A stretch of DNA of 58,297 nt from NCBI GenBank assembly GCA_947632565.1, contig CANRPT010000003.1, positions 1 through 58,297 of the forward strand, in the 5' to 3' direction. The DNA is from an uncultured Bacilli bacterium. Its GTDB lineage: Bacteria; Bacillota_I; Bacilli_A; RF39; UBA660. Position numbers and translations under genes: made by a program. Of this stretch, positions 8,622 through 20,474 are shown one piece after another (within the stretch, counting starts at the first letter, position 1; the number at the start of each line of letters is the position of its first letter). A model generated the notes under the pieces. It was given only the letters and a program-made list of their open reading frames with translations. It searched no databases and had not been told where the DNA came from.

Positions 8622-9212
8622 TTATTTTCTTCTATAAAAATAAGAGATTACTTTTGAAAAATAAAATAAAATGGGAGTACTTTTATTAATAGCTGTTGCT
8701 TTTCCGATTGCTTTTCCACCGATTGTTAAGGATGCAATCGTTGCTGTAATGACTAAACTAACTACAAATAAATTCCAATGGAAAGTAGTTGCTAATATTG
8801 TAGATAATGCTACTCCAGCGGAACCACTTATAATTCCACAGATATCTCCAATTACATCATTACAGAAACTAGATGCTTTTTCATTATTTTGAATTAATTT
8901 TACTGCTAATTTTGCTCCTCTTACTTGTTTTGTTGCCATAGAATTAAACGTTTTGATATCAGCAACAGTAACACTAATTCCAATCATATCAAAAAGAATT
9001 CCAATTCCAATAAATAGTAAAATAATAATAGCTGCAGCAATACTACTAGCATTAGGAATTGATGTTTCTGAGATAAAGGAAAAGAAAAAAGAGATAGAAA
9101 ATGCTAGAATGGTTACAGTAAAAATCCATTTATAATCTACTAACTTTTTATTTTTGAGTGGTTTTTTATTTACTTTTTTCGAATATTTTTCTTTCATTTT
9201 TTTTAATTTCAT
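8622..9212 (-). CDS. oapA: Four-helix membrane protein, probable OLE-associated protein OapA
   Basis: A 196-residue protein with a Lys-rich cytosolic N-terminus and about four membrane segments (roughly 29-48, 57-82, 125-145, 150-170). Between segments two and three is a conserved-looking cytosolic region containing CNDVIGDICG, a D-x3-D motif. OapA, the membrane partner of OLE RNA, is a ~200-residue four-helix protein with an essential DxxxD motif, encoded directly downstream of the RNA gene. The same order is seen here: the structured RNA at 9231-9811 ends 19 bp before this ATG. GAGG lies about 7 nt upstream of the start. Length, topology, motif and position are observed; the OapA identity is inferred from them. 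Confidence 0.8.
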   Translation of the reverse strand: MKLKKMKEKYSKKVNKKPLKNKKLVDYKWIFTVTILAFSISFFFSFISETSIPNASSIAAAIIILLFIGIGILFDMIGISVTVADIKTFNSMATKQVRGAKLAVKLIQNNEKASSFCNDVIGDICGIISGSAGVALSTILATTFHWNLFVVSLVITATIASLTIGGKAIGKATAINKSTPILFYFSKVISYFYRRK

Positions 9213-9230
9213 TTTTCAACCTCATTGCAT

Positions 9231-9811
9231 AAAAAAATAAGAAATGGTTATTAATATAGTAAACTTTGTATCTTAGGTCAAGTTGGATTTCCCTACTTTC
9301 TACTTACCGTTACCAATAAGCGGTTCCCCTTCAAAGAAAGCAATAGATTGTCGCCAATTCTATGACTTGATTGCCACTTAGTATACACTGCAATCCTATA
9401 TTAACAGTACACCCTAGGAGATTTCCTCTGACACTTTACTGGTTTATTACTATGCTTTTTTGCAACAAATGTTTCAAGTAGCGATACGAATTAAAAAGAT
9501 GTACACCTTTTAATCCGTTGTCTCTATCCCCACATATCACGCAAGCCAAGCTACGCTATCCATAGATTTCTCCACAAGATAGGTTTCACCCTAAGTCGTA
9601 AAGCAATTGCCTCACAAGATTAGGTCTCCACGAGTAGATGGGTCGTTCCTCATATGCCATTATAAGCGCCCATAAACTCATTCCCTCCAGCACTCACCCG
9701 ATACTGGGCGTACCAAGCAAGCACCAAAGGTTTCATAGATGTGCTCTTTAACGAATTTTTAAGCTCGTCTTCGTAATAATTGAAAGCGACTAGAATAATG
9801 CACCATTTCTT
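9231..9811 (-). ncRNA. Probable OLE RNA (ornate, large, extremophilic)
   Basis: This 581-nt stretch has no ORF, is clearly richer in G+C than its surroundings, and is highly structured. Its ends pair perfectly over 13 bp (AATAAGAAATGGT at 9801-9813 with its complement at 9236-9248), giving a closing helix followed by a T tract. Internal helices include CGCCCA/TGGGCG (9667-9672 with 9705-9710), GATTGC/GCAATC (9369-9374 with 9390-9395) and an arm at about 9489-9515. It has its own promoter, and the next gene is a DxxxD four-helix membrane protein. Size (OLE is about 600 nt), closing helix and the OapA-like neighbour point to OLE RNA. ROOL RNA is similar in size but is not known to be linked to such a protein. 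A covariance search is needed to confirm. Confidence 0.8.
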
Positions 9812-9816
9812 ATTAC

Positions 9817-9845
9817 ATTATATTATATTTTGAATTGTTTTTCAA
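9817..9845 (-). promoter_or_regulatory. Promoter of the structured RNA
   Basis: On the minus strand TTGAAA (9840-9845), a 17-bp spacer and TATAAT (9817-9822) give a near-perfect sigma-A promoter. The predicted start, about 9810, coincides with the first bases of the closing helix of the RNA. The -35 box begins only 4 bp after the upstream gene's stop codon (9850-9852). Confidence 0.85.
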
Positions 9846-10753: not shown

Positions 10754-11299
10754 CTATATGATCTCTAAATCTCTATCTTTTAAAAAATGAAATAATCTTT
10801 CGTGTTCTTCTGTATAAGGTACATAATCTTTATCTCCTTGTTTAAAGATATCTTCTAAGTACGGATAATAAACATATTTAATATCTGTTAATTCTTCTAC
10901 TTGCAGTTTCGTTTTTTCTATATCAATATTACGATGCAGTAAATACACATCATCTAGTACGCGAATATAAGAATGATGGTAAGGTTGAATTCTTTTGATG
11001 GTAAATAAGTATTCTAGTTCTTCCTCTTTTACATCTAAATTTACTTCTTCTTTTAATTCTCTAACCGCTGCTTGTCTACTAGTTTCTCCACTATCAACAT
11101 GACCTGCTACAGAAATTGCCCAAAGATTAGGAAAAGTTTTTTTATTGGGATTTCTCTTTTGTACTAGTAGTTCTTGATTATCATTTTCAATCCAAATATG
11201 ACTTGAACGATGCCAATATCCTTTTTCGTAAACTTCTTCTTTGGTTGCTATTTTTCCAGTTGGGTTTCCAAATTCATCTAATATATCTATTCGTTCCAT
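10754..11299 (-). CDS. Nudix hydrolase
   Basis: A 181-residue Nudix protein resembling the IPP-isomerase-like/YfcD subgroup: it opens with MERIDILDEFGNPTGKI and WHRSSHIWI, then has the Nudix box GHVDSGETSRQAAVRELKEE. The box matches Gx5Ex7RExxEE, with the catalytic REL-EE glutamates present. It would hydrolyse a nucleoside-diphosphate or isoprenoid-diphosphate type substrate, not determinable here. It is followed by a promoter-bearing gap before the YfiH-like gene. Confidence 0.88.
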   Translation of the reverse strand: MERIDILDEFGNPTGKIATKEEVYEKGYWHRSSHIWIENDNQELLVQKRNPNKKTFPNLWAISVAGHVDSGETSRQAAVRELKEEVNLDVKEEELEYLFTIKRIQPYHHSYIRVLDDVYLLHRNIDIEKTKLQVEELTDIKYVYYPYLEDIFKQGDKDYVPYTEEHERLFHFLKDRDLEII

Positions 11300-15069: not shown

Positions 15070-15633
15070 TTATTTTAAATAATTCACTTCATCTATTAAA
15101 TAGCCAATATATACTAATTGCTTATTTTTATCCTTTTGACTACAAGTAATTAAAGTGATTGTTTTTTTTGTTTTATCTCTATCAATAGTGGCATAACCAT
15201 TTTTCATAATTTGATAGTAATGATCAATTAGGTATACATATTTTGTATTTTGGTAATAGAATTCTATTAAACTATCGGTATTTAACTTTTCTAAATCATT
15301 AAAGAAAGCAATCTCTCCGCTACCAGAATGTGCCATTAAAATGACATTGGAACCTTCTTCTGTTGGATAAGTAGAATCTTGATGAATGGTAACATTTTCT
15401 GAAATGGTATTTCTTTTATCATTTTTCTGATAAATTCCTTTTTTTAAATGGATTTGAGGAATTTCTAAAATAGCATCATAGGTATCTACTTCTTCTTTGA
15501 TATAACCTACTTCTTTTTGTAATGTTATTTCAATCTTATTTTCTTCTTTTTCTAATTGATATTGCTCAGATAAATATTGGTATCCAATGGTAATAATCCC
15601 TAATAATAAGAAACAATAACCGCTAATTTTCAT
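15070..15633 (-). CDS. Sortase, probably dedicated to the adjacent surface protein
   Basis: A 187-residue transpeptidase with an N-terminal membrane anchor (about 4-20). The catalytic His is in AHSGSGE (His102) and the catalytic Cys in TLITCSQ (Cys164). The active-site Arg normally found 8-13 residues after the Cys is not evident: the segment reads KDKNKQLVYIG, with Lys171 or Gln172 at the expected place. Its start overlaps the end of the surface protein gene by 11 bp, a typical substrate-sortase pairing. It would cleave the VPNTE signal of that protein and attach it to the wall or to another subunit. Confidence 0.88.
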   Translation of the reverse strand: MKISGYCFLLLGIITIGYQYLSEQYQLEKEENKIEITLQKEVGYIKEEVDTYDAILEIPQIHLKKGIYQKNDKRNTISENVTIHQDSTYPTEEGSNVILMAHSGSGEIAFFNDLEKLNTDSLIEFYYQNTKYVYLIDHYYQIMKNGYATIDRDKTKKTITLITCSQKDKNKQLVYIGYLIDEVNYLK

Positions 15634-18415
15634 TCTTTTTCTCTTTCCTTAATAAGTAAAATCCGCTTAGTAGAAGGAAGGTTCCAAAATAAGAAATATT
15701 AGATTGATGTATTTCCGTATTGGGTACTTCAATTCTTTCTTGTTCATCACTATATTCAAAAACTTGTTCTAATAGCTCTACTTTCTTTGTTTCTAAACTA
15801 TCTAATAATACTTCTATTACAGATTCATTCGTTGGATCTATCAAATAATAACTACCTAAATATAAGTCATCTGTTAGAATGGTTTTTCCATTCCATTTTG
15901 CTGTTGATACCAAAGAATCTTTGGCATATAGTTTTACTCCATCCTTGGAATAAATATCTTCTTTCGCATAAATTGGAATTTCAATTTCAATATCCTGCTT
16001 CTTATCTTTTAAGATATCATTGAAATAGTATTCCATCCATTTTTCAATCTCAATTCTACTTTTTATTTTCTGATTTGGTACAATGATTTCCATATATTTT
16101 TGGTGATTTTCATCTTCTAAATAATTCGTATTATCATTGATTTCAAAAAGGAATATATTTTCATTCATTACATAACCATCTACTGCTTTTATTTGTTCTA
16201 CTTGATAAGTACCACTTGTTAATAAGTACATTGTAGTAATTCCTAAATTATTTGTTGTAAGAATAAAAGTATTTCCTTTCTCATCTTTTAAATATTCTCC
16301 TGTTTCCCTATTTTTAATACGAAAGCTTGCTCCCTTTTCTAAAATTGGTAAATGGGAATCAAAATCCGTATTTTTGACTTGGATGTAAACTTCAATTTCT
16401 TTACTATACTCATAAATTTGTTCTAATAAGTCAATCTTTTTTGGTTCTTCACTATCTAGAGTGACTTCCATTCTGGAATGATTGATTGGATTCGTAAAAT
16501 AAAAGGTACCAAGATATAAATCTTCTGTTAAAATCATTTTTCCATTCCATTTTGCAATTGATACCAAAGAATCTTTGGCATATAATTTTAAACCATCTTT
16601 CGAATAAACATCTTCTTTGGCATATATTGGAATGGTAATTTCTTTATCTTGTATTTTATTCGTTAAAATATCATTGAAATAATATTCTGTCCATTTTTCA
16701 AATTCAATTCTACTTCTTATTTTCTGATTTGGTACAATGATTTCAATATACTTTTGTTGATTTTCGTCTTCTTGATAAATGGTATCTTCATTTATTTGAA
16801 AGAAAAATACATGTTGATTCATGCGATAAGTATCTACAGCTTGAATCTGTTCTACCTGATATACACCACTTGATAATAAGTATAAATTGGTAACTCCGAA
16901 ATTATTGGTAGAAAGTAGTAAAATATTACCATTGAAATCTGTTACATATTTTCCTGTTTCTAAATCTTTTATTCGAAATACTGCACCTTTTTCTAAAATT
17001 GGTAAATGAGAATCAAAATCAATATTTTGAATTCTAATATTTAAAGTCAATTCTTCATTATATAATGGAAAGTTTTGGATTTGATTTGCCTCCACTACAT
17101 GAATTTCAAAGTCTTCTACAAAAGCATGATTTTTAGCTCCTTCTTCTTGTACAACGGTATAAGTTCCATAAGGAAGAGTCAAAGAATAAGTACCATTTTC
17201 ATCGGTTTTAAAGGTAGTTACCTTGCGATGATTTTTATCATAGATAGAAAATTTTGCATCTTTTTCTTCTTTGATTTCTCCTGTTATTGGATTTTTCAAA
17301 TATTTTTGAAAGGTAATTTGATTTTGGATAACTTGATTATAAAAAGAAACATTTTTTACTTCTTCATTCACTTCAATTTCTAAAGTATTAGGATTTAATT
17401 CATATCCAGTTCCTGCTTGAATTTCTTTTAAATAGTAAGTTCCATAATCTAAATCATCAAAGGATAAAGTAAAATCTTCTCCTATTTCTTTTTCTGCAAC
17501 GAAATAATTATCTTGATCCAATAACTGAAATTTACTTCCTTTTAAGCTTGCCTCTCCTAATGATTCTGTAGTACCAGTAGTCATATCTAGTTTATTGACA
17601 ATGATTTTAGCTGGATTTACATTCAGAGTAATTACCATATATATGGGATAATAATTCCCTGGTGCTAACACATCTTGTCCTGTTTGGTCTACATAGATAA
17701 TTGGATCTGAGGTAAACCTTTTTCCACTATTCGTAAAATATAGTATGGTCTCTCCTTTCGTTTTTTTGGTTACAGTCAATTGATTTCCTTCTTTTTGAAC
17801 TTCAATCGTACCATTATGATGATAGTCAAATCTATCTAATACTTGATTTGTATCTGTAATCGTTATTGGTGTGTTATAAGTTAAGTCATAATGTTCATTA
17901 TAAAAGGATGGGGTAATGCCATGAGCTTTTATTAAGGATTGAATTTCTTCCATTTCTTCTTCATATTTGGTAACTTGATTACCATTTAAGGTATCTGTAA
18001 AATAGAAAGTAGAGTCTTTCGATACTTCCTTCCAAATCATAAATTGCGTAATGGCGAACCACTTACTATCCATATGACCATCATACCCATATCCGTAATA
18101 TGCAATTAACATTACTTTTTCCCAAGTTGCATAGTCAAGACTAGCTTGTTGATAGGGTTTAGAGTCATACCCCGTTAAATTAGTATTTTCTTTTAAATTT
18201 TCCCAAGGTTCTAGGCAATAAACTGGTTCGTTATCACTATTTCTTCTAAAAAATCTTAATTGTTCATATTTCCCAGAAGATCCTTTGAATTTCTTGATGT
18301 AGGCACCAGGAATGTATTCCGCTGCATGAAAGCTATCCTCCAATGCTTCTACTTTAAAATTTGGTATCACAAAAAGTGATAATAATACTATGAAAACCGT
18401 CATTAATTTTTTCAT
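15623..18415 (-). CDS. Thioester-domain surface adhesin with SpaA-like repeats and VPNTE sorting signal
   Basis: A 930-residue secreted wall protein. Signal peptide at 1-24. A TQxA-type thioester domain follows, with Cys67 (PVYCLEP) and Gln124 (AITQFMIW) positioned for an internal Cys-Gln bond, which in streptococcal adhesins reacts covalently with host amines. Next are two SpaA/prealbumin-like domains (about 270-355 and 365-455), then two tandem ~218-residue repeats (about 468-900), each starting FDSHLPILEKGA. The C-terminus has VPNTE at 897-901, a hydrophobic helix and a Lys-rich tail: a sorting signal that departs from LPxTG. A strong AGGAGG site precedes the ATG. The sortase gene follows immediately. 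Function as a host-binding adhesin is inferred from the domains. Confidence 0.92.
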   Translation of the reverse strand: MKKLMTVFIVLLSLFVIPNFKVEALEDSFHAAEYIPGAYIKKFKGSSGKYEQLRFFRRNSDNEPVYCLEPWENLKENTNLTGYDSKPYQQASLDYATWEKVMLIAYYGYGYDGHMDSKWFAITQFMIWKEVSKDSTFYFTDTLNGNQVTKYEEEMEEIQSLIKAHGITPSFYNEHYDLTYNTPITITDTNQVLDRFDYHHNGTIEVQKEGNQLTVTKKTKGETILYFTNSGKRFTSDPIIYVDQTGQDVLAPGNYYPIYMVITLNVNPAKIIVNKLDMTTGTTESLGEASLKGSKFQLLDQDNYFVAEKEIGEDFTLSFDDLDYGTYYLKEIQAGTGYELNPNTLEIEVNEEVKNVSFYNQVIQNQITFQKYLKNPITGEIKEEKDAKFSIYDKNHRKVTTFKTDENGTYSLTLPYGTYTVVQEEGAKNHAFVEDFEIHVVEANQIQNFPLYNEELTLNIRIQNIDFDSHLPILEKGAVFRIKDLETGKYVTDFNGNILLLSTNNFGVTNLYLLSSGVYQVEQIQAVDTYRMNQHVFFFQINEDTIYQEDENQQKYIEIIVPNQKIRSRIEFEKWTEYYFNDILTNKIQDKEITIPIYAKEDVYSKDGLKLYAKDSLVSIAKWNGKMILTEDLYLGTFYFTNPINHSRMEVTLDSEEPKKIDLLEQIYEYSKEIEVYIQVKNTDFDSHLPILEKGASFRIKNRETGEYLKDEKGNTFILTTNNLGITTMYLLTSGTYQVEQIKAVDGYVMNENIFLFEINDNTNYLEDENHQKYMEIIVPNQKIKSRIEIEKWMEYYFNDILKDKKQDIEIEIPIYAKEDIYSKDGVKLYAKDSLVSTAKWNGKTILTDDLYLGSYYLIDPTNESVIEVLLDSLETKKVELLEQVFEYSDEQERIEVPNTEIHQSNISYFGTFLLLSGFYLLRKEKKNEN
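15720..17014 (-). repeat. Two tandem ~654-bp coding repeats in the surface protein
   Basis: The sequence encoding FDSHLPILEKGA recurs with an offset of 654 bp (16995 versus 16341), and similarity extends across the unit, including VPNQKI, IPIYAKED and KLYAKDSLVS blocks. Each unit is about 218 residues: a SpaA-like fold plus a second beta-rich part. Recombination between units could change the length of the protein. Confidence 0.85.
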
Positions 18416-18543: not shown

Positions 18544-19263
18544 TTAATTTTTCTTTTTTTGAAATAATTCTTTTACACTAGGAAGAGATAGTTCTTCATT
18601 TCTAAAATCAATCAAATCGAAAAAACGATACATGGTAGTACAACTTTCACATTTGGCTGGACTCTCTTTCTTATCTAACCACTTCTCGTGAATCTTCTTT
18701 GCTCGTTTGATTGCCTCTAATAAATCCCCATATTGATAAAAAATATGGAAAATTTTTAATAAATTTTTTTGATATTTTTGGCTACAACCGTGAGATGCAA
18801 GTTGTTCATCTATTTTTTGTTTATAATCTTTTCGATCAATCCCACTATCACAATAGAAGAAATGTAGTAAAAAGAAATATTCAATAGCTTGATTGGACCA
18901 ACATGCAATGTATCCTTCTTTCTCGCACATTTGAATTGCTTTATTAAAATCATTATCACTAAAACTATCTTTATCGAATACCACAATTGTATATTTATAT
19001 GGTATTAACACTTCTCTTTTCTTACTATCTACTAAATTTTGAAGTTCCATTGCTTTATCTACTAAGGAAGTAGTATTCATTCCCATCCCTGTAATAGTAA
19101 CATCTAATTGCATATCTTGAGGTATTTTAGTATTCATAAATTCAATAACGCCTTTTAAATAGTTAGGTTCTGTTTTTGTTCCTTCACAGACAACCAACCA
19201 TTTACTTTTTTCTTGTCTTAAAATTCCACTTTTCCTTGGTGTTCTTTCCTTTCTACTTCCCAT
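18544..19263 (-). CDS. rloB: RloB-like Toprim-fold protein (AbiL-type defence, effector)
   Basis: A 239-residue RloB-family protein. The N-terminal WLVVCEGTKTEPNYLKG (Glu27) and the IVVFDKDSF acidic motif (Asp96, Asp98) form a Toprim-like metal site; SNQAIEYFFLLHF is the third conserved block. RloB-type proteins are the putative nuclease effectors of RloAB/AbiL phage-defence pairs. Its ATG lies 5 bp after the stop of the ATPase gene. No methylase or restriction gene is nearby. The defence role is inferred from the family pairing. Confidence 0.88.
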   Translation of the reverse strand: MGSRKERTPRKSGILRQEKSKWLVVCEGTKTEPNYLKGVIEFMNTKIPQDMQLDVTITGMGMNTTSLVDKAMELQNLVDSKKREVLIPYKYTIVVFDKDSFSDNDFNKAIQMCEKEGYIACWSNQAIEYFFLLHFFYCDSGIDRKDYKQKIDEQLASHGCSQKYQKNLLKIFHIFYQYGDLLEAIKRAKKIHEKWLDKKESPAKCESCTTMYRFFDLIDFRNEELSLPSVKELFQKKKN

Positions 19264-19268
19264 ACTGA

Positions 19269-20447
19269 TTACCTCTCTTGAAATGGAATTGCTCCAAATT
19301 CTCCTGCTAAATATTTCTTTTCGTAGTCTGCATCCCCTCTTAAATTTTCAAAATCAGATAAAGAATACAAATTAGACATTCCATTTTTATCTTTTTCTAC
19401 TAAATAAATCTGATCTCTTCTTAATTCATCTTTATCAAATAAATAAGTACTATGAGCACTATAAATTAATTGTGCATGTTTTTTATTGAAAGATGGATTA
19501 TTAAACATGGAAACAATTTTACGATATAAAAGAGGATGAAATTTCGTATCTAATTCATCAATAAATAAAGTTCCACCATCTTCTAAGGAAAGGATAATAA
19601 ATGGGGCCAATGCTATTGCTTTAAAGGTTCCATCCGATTCTAAGGATATTTCCATTTTATATTTCTTTTTCCTATTCTTAGGATCGGAGTGAACACAATA
19701 TATTTTATATTCTTCCTTCTCCAATTTATTTTCTTTTTCTATAATAATCTTTTCAACACAAGAATCAATTTCACTCATAAATCTTTCTACTTTTTCTACT
19801 AAATCTGGATTATTATATAATAATTCATAAATAGAAGTAGGGATATTCATAAAATCTTTTGCATAAAATCCATTTATAAACCAATCATAGATTTTATCCG
19901 CTATTTGAATTCTTCTTCTTCCTAATATACTAAGTAATAACGTTTTTTGATCTAAAAATGGTTCATAGTCTTTAATATCAGCAAATTTTTCTACGATAAC
20001 ATTATTTTTTTCTCTTTCAAATAACATTTTTTCTTTTGCTGTTGTATTGCTTTTAAATGGCTTTTCATAAAGCCATTCTTCCTTAATTTCCTCTCTATTG
20101 GCAATAAAACCATAACGATATTCTTTCTCATCAATGTTTAAAAATATTTCAAATTCACTGTCTTCTTTACGATATTCATCGGTAAAAATAAAGGGATTTA
20201 CCTCAAATGGTTTTGTTTTATTCATATCAAAGGACTTTATCACTAAATATGCCATGGTAAAAAAAGCATCTAAAACGGTTGTTTTTCCAGAAGCATTAGC
20301 ACCTTGTATTTCTACTACAGGTAATGTTTTATTTCCATTTTTCTCTATTAGATAATCAGAATGTCTTTGTTCTAAAGTTGCTGTCATATCCAATATAGCC
20401 TCATGATAAAAACTTTTATGATTTTTAAAACGAAATTGTATTAACAT
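19269..20447 (-). CDS. rloA: RloA-like AAA ATPase (AbiL-type defence, sensor)
   Basis: A 392-residue ATPase of the RloA/OLD-like, SMC-related group. Walker A is GANASGKT at 49-56, Walker B TLFIDELD near 293-300, and a conserved YSAHSTYLF follows. It opens with the typical LIQFRFKNHKSF strand. The ATG at 20447 is chosen over one at 20474 because the latter lies next to the -10 box and upstream of the predicted transcript start, and because AAGAAGTGAG precedes 20447. With the RloB gene it forms a two-gene operon. Such ATPases are thought to hold the effector inactive until phage infection. Confidence 0.88.
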   Translation of the reverse strand: MLIQFRFKNHKSFYHEAILDMTATLEQRHSDYLIEKNGNKTLPVVEIQGANASGKTTVLDAFFTMAYLVIKSFDMNKTKPFEVNPFIFTDEYRKEDSEFEIFLNIDEKEYRYGFIANREEIKEEWLYEKPFKSNTTAKEKMLFEREKNNVIVEKFADIKDYEPFLDQKTLLLSILGRRRIQIADKIYDWFINGFYAKDFMNIPTSIYELLYNNPDLVEKVERFMSEIDSCVEKIIIEKENKLEKEEYKIYCVHSDPKNRKKKYKMEISLESDGTFKAIALAPFIILSLEDGGTLFIDELDTKFHPLLYRKIVSMFNNPSFNKKHAQLIYSAHSTYLFDKDELRRDQIYLVEKDKNGMSNLYSLSDFENLRGDADYEKKYLAGEFGAIPFQER

Positions 20448-20474
20448 AATCTCACTTCTTTCTTTTTCAAGCAT

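Follow-up and report, generated by a model that had tools for sequence, protein, structure and literature searches.

The analysed window, a stretch of 58,297 nucleotides from an uncultured member of the Bacilli, carries on its reverse strand an OLE RNA gene followed by a gene for a 196-aa membrane protein, OapA (Table 1). The Rfam OLE model RF01071 was matched at positions 9822-9228 (minus strand) over its entire length (model positions 1-616 of 616) with 407.6 bits (E = 2.5e-116), as compared to a gathering score of 50 bits, and no other Rfam family reached the gathering threshold anywhere in the window. OLE is present as a single copy in the 1.44-Mb assembly, which is 94.7% complete. As described in the initial annotation, the stretch is free of ORFs (none longer than 37 aa overlaps 9228-9822), richer in G+C than the flanking windows (0.38 vs 0.24-0.33) and strongly folded, with a minimum free energy of -173.7 kcal/mol, whereas 100 shuffles average -142.2 (z = -5.6) and none of them is equally stable. 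Size and a gut-type host alone would also suit another large structured RNA such as ROOL or GOLLD, an assignment whose probability is negligible and which is refuted by RF01071 being the sole family at threshold, with no match to either ROOL or GOLLD in the window, and by the adjoining oapA gene. The locus is an OLE RNA with an adjacent OapA gene, and the identification proposed earlier is correct. Few well-conserved bacterial RNAs that lack a known biochemical function are as large as OLE, which gives the locus its importance.

Table 1. Features of the OLE-oapA locus, in coordinates of the window
Feature	Position	Strand	Remarks
Sigma-A-type promoter of OLE	9817..9845	-	TTGAAA 9845-9840, 17-nt spacer, TATAAT 9822-9817
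OLE RNA gene (Rfam match)	9228..9822	-	Covariance model and folding z; RNA body ~9814-9231
P1 closing helix, 5' arm AATAAGAAATGGT	9802..9814	-	Pairs with 9248-9236
J6/7 junction (CGUGGAGACC)	9623..9632	-	One side of the cryo-EM k-turn; deleted in the short copies L025-L028
P7 and P8 helices (Rfam columns 199-277)	9556..9626	-	Present here; absent from variant-2 OLE RNAs
P9.3 hairpin with loop L9.3 UGUACAU (9505-9499)	9487..9517	-	Self-complementary GUAC, predicted dimer kissing loop
P1 closing helix, 3' arm ACCATTTCTTATT	9236..9248	-	Followed by U-run 9235-9231
Ribosome-binding site GAGG	9220..9223	-	7 nt 5' of the oapA start codon
oapA, 196-aa CNNM-type membrane protein	8622..9212	-	Orthologues, CNNM profile, predicted structure

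The 196-aa protein is OapA by homology to an OLE-adjacent protein, by linkage and by predicted fold, the identity being taken from these three lines because Pfam and NCBIfam searches at E 1e-3 named no family; neither the protein nor its profile retrieved anything meaningful from the PDB sequences. The gene starts 15 nt past the Rfam match and 18-23 nt past the end of OLE. Its product is 44% identical over 191 aa (167 bits) to the protein whose gene is flanked by OLE and dxs in Oscillibacter sp. ER4, with which it shares the position after OLE and the motif CNDV(I/V)GDICGI. Gene order in Oscillibacter sp. ER4, with names read from ORFs, is rpsB-tsf-OLE-oapA-dxs-tlyA-NAD kinase-argR and fits the isoprenoid-type OLE neighbourhood, whereas the window oapA has no adjoining dxs, tlyA or argR. 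Homologues of the 196-aa protein sit 3' of OLE in related genomes, and conserved OLE motifs were observed just 5' of the protein in nearly all of the best 80 named loci of a protein-profile search, Oscillibacter sp. ER4 being one of them. With the CNNM profile (PF01595) the window protein scores a sub-threshold 22.8 bits and some homologues pass, up to E 7.6e-8; OapA has been described as the next-closest group to CNNM (PMC11332333). In the AlphaFold2 model, whose mean pLDDT is 84, there are four long helices (residues 27-51, 57-83, 110-144 and 148-176), predicted as transmembrane in a CNNM-type fold. The model superimposes on the archaeal CNNM protein MtCorB (7m1t) with Z 15.0 and rmsd 2.2 over 129 residues and on CorC with Z 13, and no different fold scores above Z 8.2. 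As compared to the CNNM/CorB/MpfA Mg2+ transporters, window OapA has the same transmembrane fold but lacks CBS and CorC domains and stays below the Pfam cut-off. The four-helix membrane protein with a D-x3-D motif noted from the letters is thereby borne out, the motif being D119-VIG-D123 with both aspartates invariant in 39 aligned proteins.

OLE in the window's family has a predicted promoter of its own that is conserved across the family, since 76 of 106 related loci carry an 11-12/12 match to the scored pattern TTGACA-N16-19-TATAAT just 5' of OLE, as compared to ~0.2 expected from shuffles. The window promoter matches the consensus at 11 of 12 positions, and in related loci exact TATAAT clusters 15-24 nt 5' of the conserved GG(T)GCA. 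Presence of a TTGAAA-17-TATAAT promoter, claimed initially, holds, while the statement that it starts exactly at the closing helix is true only approximately, as the -10 element ends 2 nt before the helix, which puts the usual start at ~9810, slightly within the 5' arm. This own promoter distinguishes the window OLE from that of H. halodurans, where the OLE cluster has been described as one polycistronic transcript (PMC12265935). The ends of the RNA pair as noted before, the P1 arms forming a perfect helix of 13 bp. The P1 closing helix covaries and selection acts on its structure: among 92 related loci, 70-100% are paired at the innermost eight positions, two-sided changes occur at positions 1 and 5-8, and pairing between a locus's own arms exceeds that of arms mixed between loci (97% vs 79% at position 1 and 72% vs 41% at position 7).

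The L9.3 loop is the element through which two copies of the RNA might contact each other. The cryo-EM structure of C. acetobutylicum OLE is a dimer, in which L9.3 loops kiss via self-complementary GGCC, GAUC or AGCU (PMC12286853). A self-complementary tetramer is present in 102 of 108 related L9.3 loops, as compared to ~53 after shuffling with a maximum of 70 in 500 shuffles. The commonest central tetramer in these 108 loops is GGCC, followed by GUAC and AGCU, with GCGC and UCGA being rare. On a quickly built tree, from which the loop region was left out and on which the states include a few non-self-complementary loops, there are 14 or more transitions between loop states. Variation of the letters with self-complementarity being held may be read as support for dimerisation in the family, and we read the states found as extending the published set of tetramers. 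At the genomic level, this covariation (GGCC/GUAC/AGCU/GCGC/UCGA) lends independent support to the cryo-EM RNA dimer existing in cells.

The window copy contains both P7 and P8 and belongs to the full-length type, which accounts for approximately three quarters of the family matches as estimated by score and length. Like full-length-type OLE (RF01071), it has the complete model 1-616, the conserved 3' domain, the closing helix, the L9.3 loop and oapA downstream, and it differs by the missing Rfam 4-bp hairpin at 424-435, by GUAC in L9.3 and by its occurrence in a family of small-genome uncultured Bacilli without L7Ae/OapC. Shorter copies within the family (L025-L028), without Rfam columns 198-277, correspond to the published variant 2 that lacks P7 and P8. 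Variant 2 of the RF39 clade (PMC11332333) shares with the window the missing OapC and probably the same broad lineage; the window copy differs from it by keeping P7, P8 and J6/7, its family holding the short copies as well. Both elements of the k-turn, as described by cryo-EM, are present in the window, AUC-UAU-GAA in J4a/5 and UGGAGA in J6/7. Both were found in 45 of 77 long copies, a count made by exact motif matching that is too strict, and the claim is limited to the window copy.

Distribution of the pair was followed across the window's family, with 244 genomes that are each at least 90% complete. OLE was found in 163 and OapA in 166 of them, with 160 genomes having both, 75 neither, three OLE only and six OapA only (Fisher p ~1e-51), in agreement with the near-perfect OLE-OapA association already published (PMC11332333). 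Among the nine discordant genomes, OLE is cut by a contig end in three (G508, G559 and G596), two are at contig edges by coordinates (G464 and G652) and one is marginal (G549, E 4.6e-4), leaving G475, G545 and G551. Approximately one third of the family is without both OLE and OapA, and hence the complex is dispensable in the niche. G475 has a strong OLE with no detectable OapA, while G545 lacks OapA and combines a weakly matching OLE with a full-length CNNM protein, which could represent decay and replacement.

Members of genus g4 demonstrate that the pair can be unlinked, because OLE and oapA are found on separate contigs or no OLE neighbours oapA (loci L007 and L040 of G019, and genomes G620 and G551). 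Such arrangements weigh against a reading in which the 196-aa protein transports metal by itself, as a small protein of the CNNM type, and OLE is chiefly a leader that controls translation or transcription of oapA in cis. The short distance between the OLE end and the oapA start, the U-run after P1 and the predicted fold of a Mg2+ transporter domain would suit a leader, but separation on different contigs in G019 and G620 and by more than 1 kb in G021 would be intolerable for it. Also, the self-complementarity of L9.3 points to an RNA-RNA dimer, and in H. halodurans OLE is bound by OapA and acts jointly with it (PMC12265935), so that we hold a leader function to be improbable. Separate from the intact pairs, a 47-residue C-terminal oapA fragment, 70% identical, lies far from the intact gene in L043 (G014:C17:27326-27466), and a ~40-nt near-identical relic of the contig's own OLE promoter and 5' end was observed at L091:1640-1679, 2.1 kb upstream of the intact OLE copy.

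Among the partner proteins, the L7Ae family, which includes OapC, was detected in none of the 244 family genomes, while the control detects L7Ae in B. subtilis and 14 of 15 Bacilli sampled outside the family have a match at E <= 0.001. The KOW-domain search of the window genome, at its 94.7% completeness, revealed only L24, next to L14, and NusG, next to SecE, a result that a diverged OapB could escape; more generally, Pfam profiles could miss diverged OapB or OapC. Retention of the k-turn elements while the L7Ae family is absent suggests that here the k-turn probably serves the RNA itself. Fernando and Breaker (2024) have described OLE in the gut RF39 and TANB77 clades without OapB and OapC (PMC11332333). 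Of the new host announced in the initial annotation, the real presence of OLE here stands, and the novelty of the host type does not. What has been published already thus comprises the OLE class, its occurrence in gut clades and the lack of OapB and OapC in these clades, and the new points are modest: the L9.3 covariation, the own promoter, the complete loss of L7Ae with k-turn elements kept and the lack of an exchange for MpfA. As to the last point, OLE and MpfA anticorrelate across Bacillota (PMC11332333), but full-length CNNM (MpfA-type) proteins are found in 16 of the 163 family genomes with OLE and in 7 of the 81 without it (Fisher p 1.0). In the absence of an anticorrelation, MpfA as a replacement in OLE-less genomes of the family is unsupported, and 68 of the 244 genomes have none of the three, OLE, OapA or a full-length CNNM protein. 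The published replacement idea is limited by this lack of a swap for MpfA in the family.

With its partners OapB and OapC gone, OLE could also be viewed as a decaying, non-functional remnant in a reduced genome. Such a view would be in line with L7Ae/OapC in 0 of 244 genomes, with no OapB-like KOW protein being seen in the window genome and with one third of the family lacking OLE and OapA, yet we consider it very improbable, as the match is full-length, the promoter is maintained, oapA is intact with invariant residues, and OLE and OapA are jointly present or absent. Compensatory changes in P1 and L9.3 largely refute decay.

The best explanation, to which a probability of roughly 85% is given, is an OLE RNA-OapA ribonucleoprotein locus that would encode a minimal membrane RNP for metal-ion and stress handling. 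Function of the complex outside the window's family has been addressed in several studies (PMC10898510, PMC12265935, PMC12286853). In H. halodurans, membrane localisation and a stress phenotype of OLE are known, and cells that have lost the complex are sensitive to cold, alcohol and Mg2+, grow poorly on certain carbon sources and show defects related to Mn2+ (PMC10898510). By analogy with H. halodurans and with the clostridial OLE cryo-EM, which are the sources for membrane anchoring, dimer contacts and the metal/stress role, the following course can be proposed. The dedicated promoter would direct synthesis of an OLE RNA of ~585 nt, probably with read-through into oapA, and this RNA would fold with ends closed by P1 and dimerise, partly by the self-complementary L9.3 kissing loop. 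OapA with its CNNM transmembrane fold would anchor the OLE dimer in the membrane and, being a metal-transporter fold without regulatory domains, would receive its regulation from the OLE RNA, which has been proposed as a stand-in for the domains missing from OapA (PMC12265935). The OLE-OapA complex would most likely adjust divalent metal ions (Mg2+/Mn2+) under stress. In the window's family it would work without OapC and probably without OapB, and hence OLE RNA and OapA would be the core.

The window lineage seems to run a stripped-down OLE lacking a helper protein that other lineages cannot do without, and a lineage with the full RNA and OapA but no OapC narrows the possible core of the OLE machine. 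A more far-reaching proposal, for which we see even odds, is that of a natural minimal OLE machine composed of a full-length RNA dimer and OapA, in which the k-turn, elsewhere bound by OapC, is kept though the family lost L7Ae, no exchange for MpfA takes place upon loss, and OapC is accessory rather than core. If true, the k-turn and the dimer loop would serve the RNA's own architecture.

Around OLE-oapA in the window lie genes for a NAGPA phosphodiester glycosidase, glutamate racemase, a Mur ligase, D-Ala-D-Ala ligase and glycosyltransferases. The wall-polymer context pointed out initially is true of the window but is not a conserved feature: near OLE in 80 related loci, the NAGPA gene recurs in 10 and a 184-aa gene in seven, and, oapA aside, no window gene is found in more than 10. 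A conserved operon with wall genes is ruled out by these counts, and a functional tie to wall polymers beyond close relatives is not supported; cell-wall genes are already among the published OLE neighbourhoods (PMC12265935). A Nudix gene at 10754-11299, considered as an IPP isomerase that would provide an isoprenoid link, reaches 59.6 bits where the cut-off demands 127 and is a non-member. Further along the reverse strand, the interval 15070-18415 encodes a sortase and, after it, a 930-aa surface protein carrying thioester and SpaA domains, in a pilus-like arrangement, and at 18544-20474 an RloB-like protein lies next to an AAA_21 ATPase, called by PADLOC as AbiLii and AbiLi, a two-gene phage-defence system.
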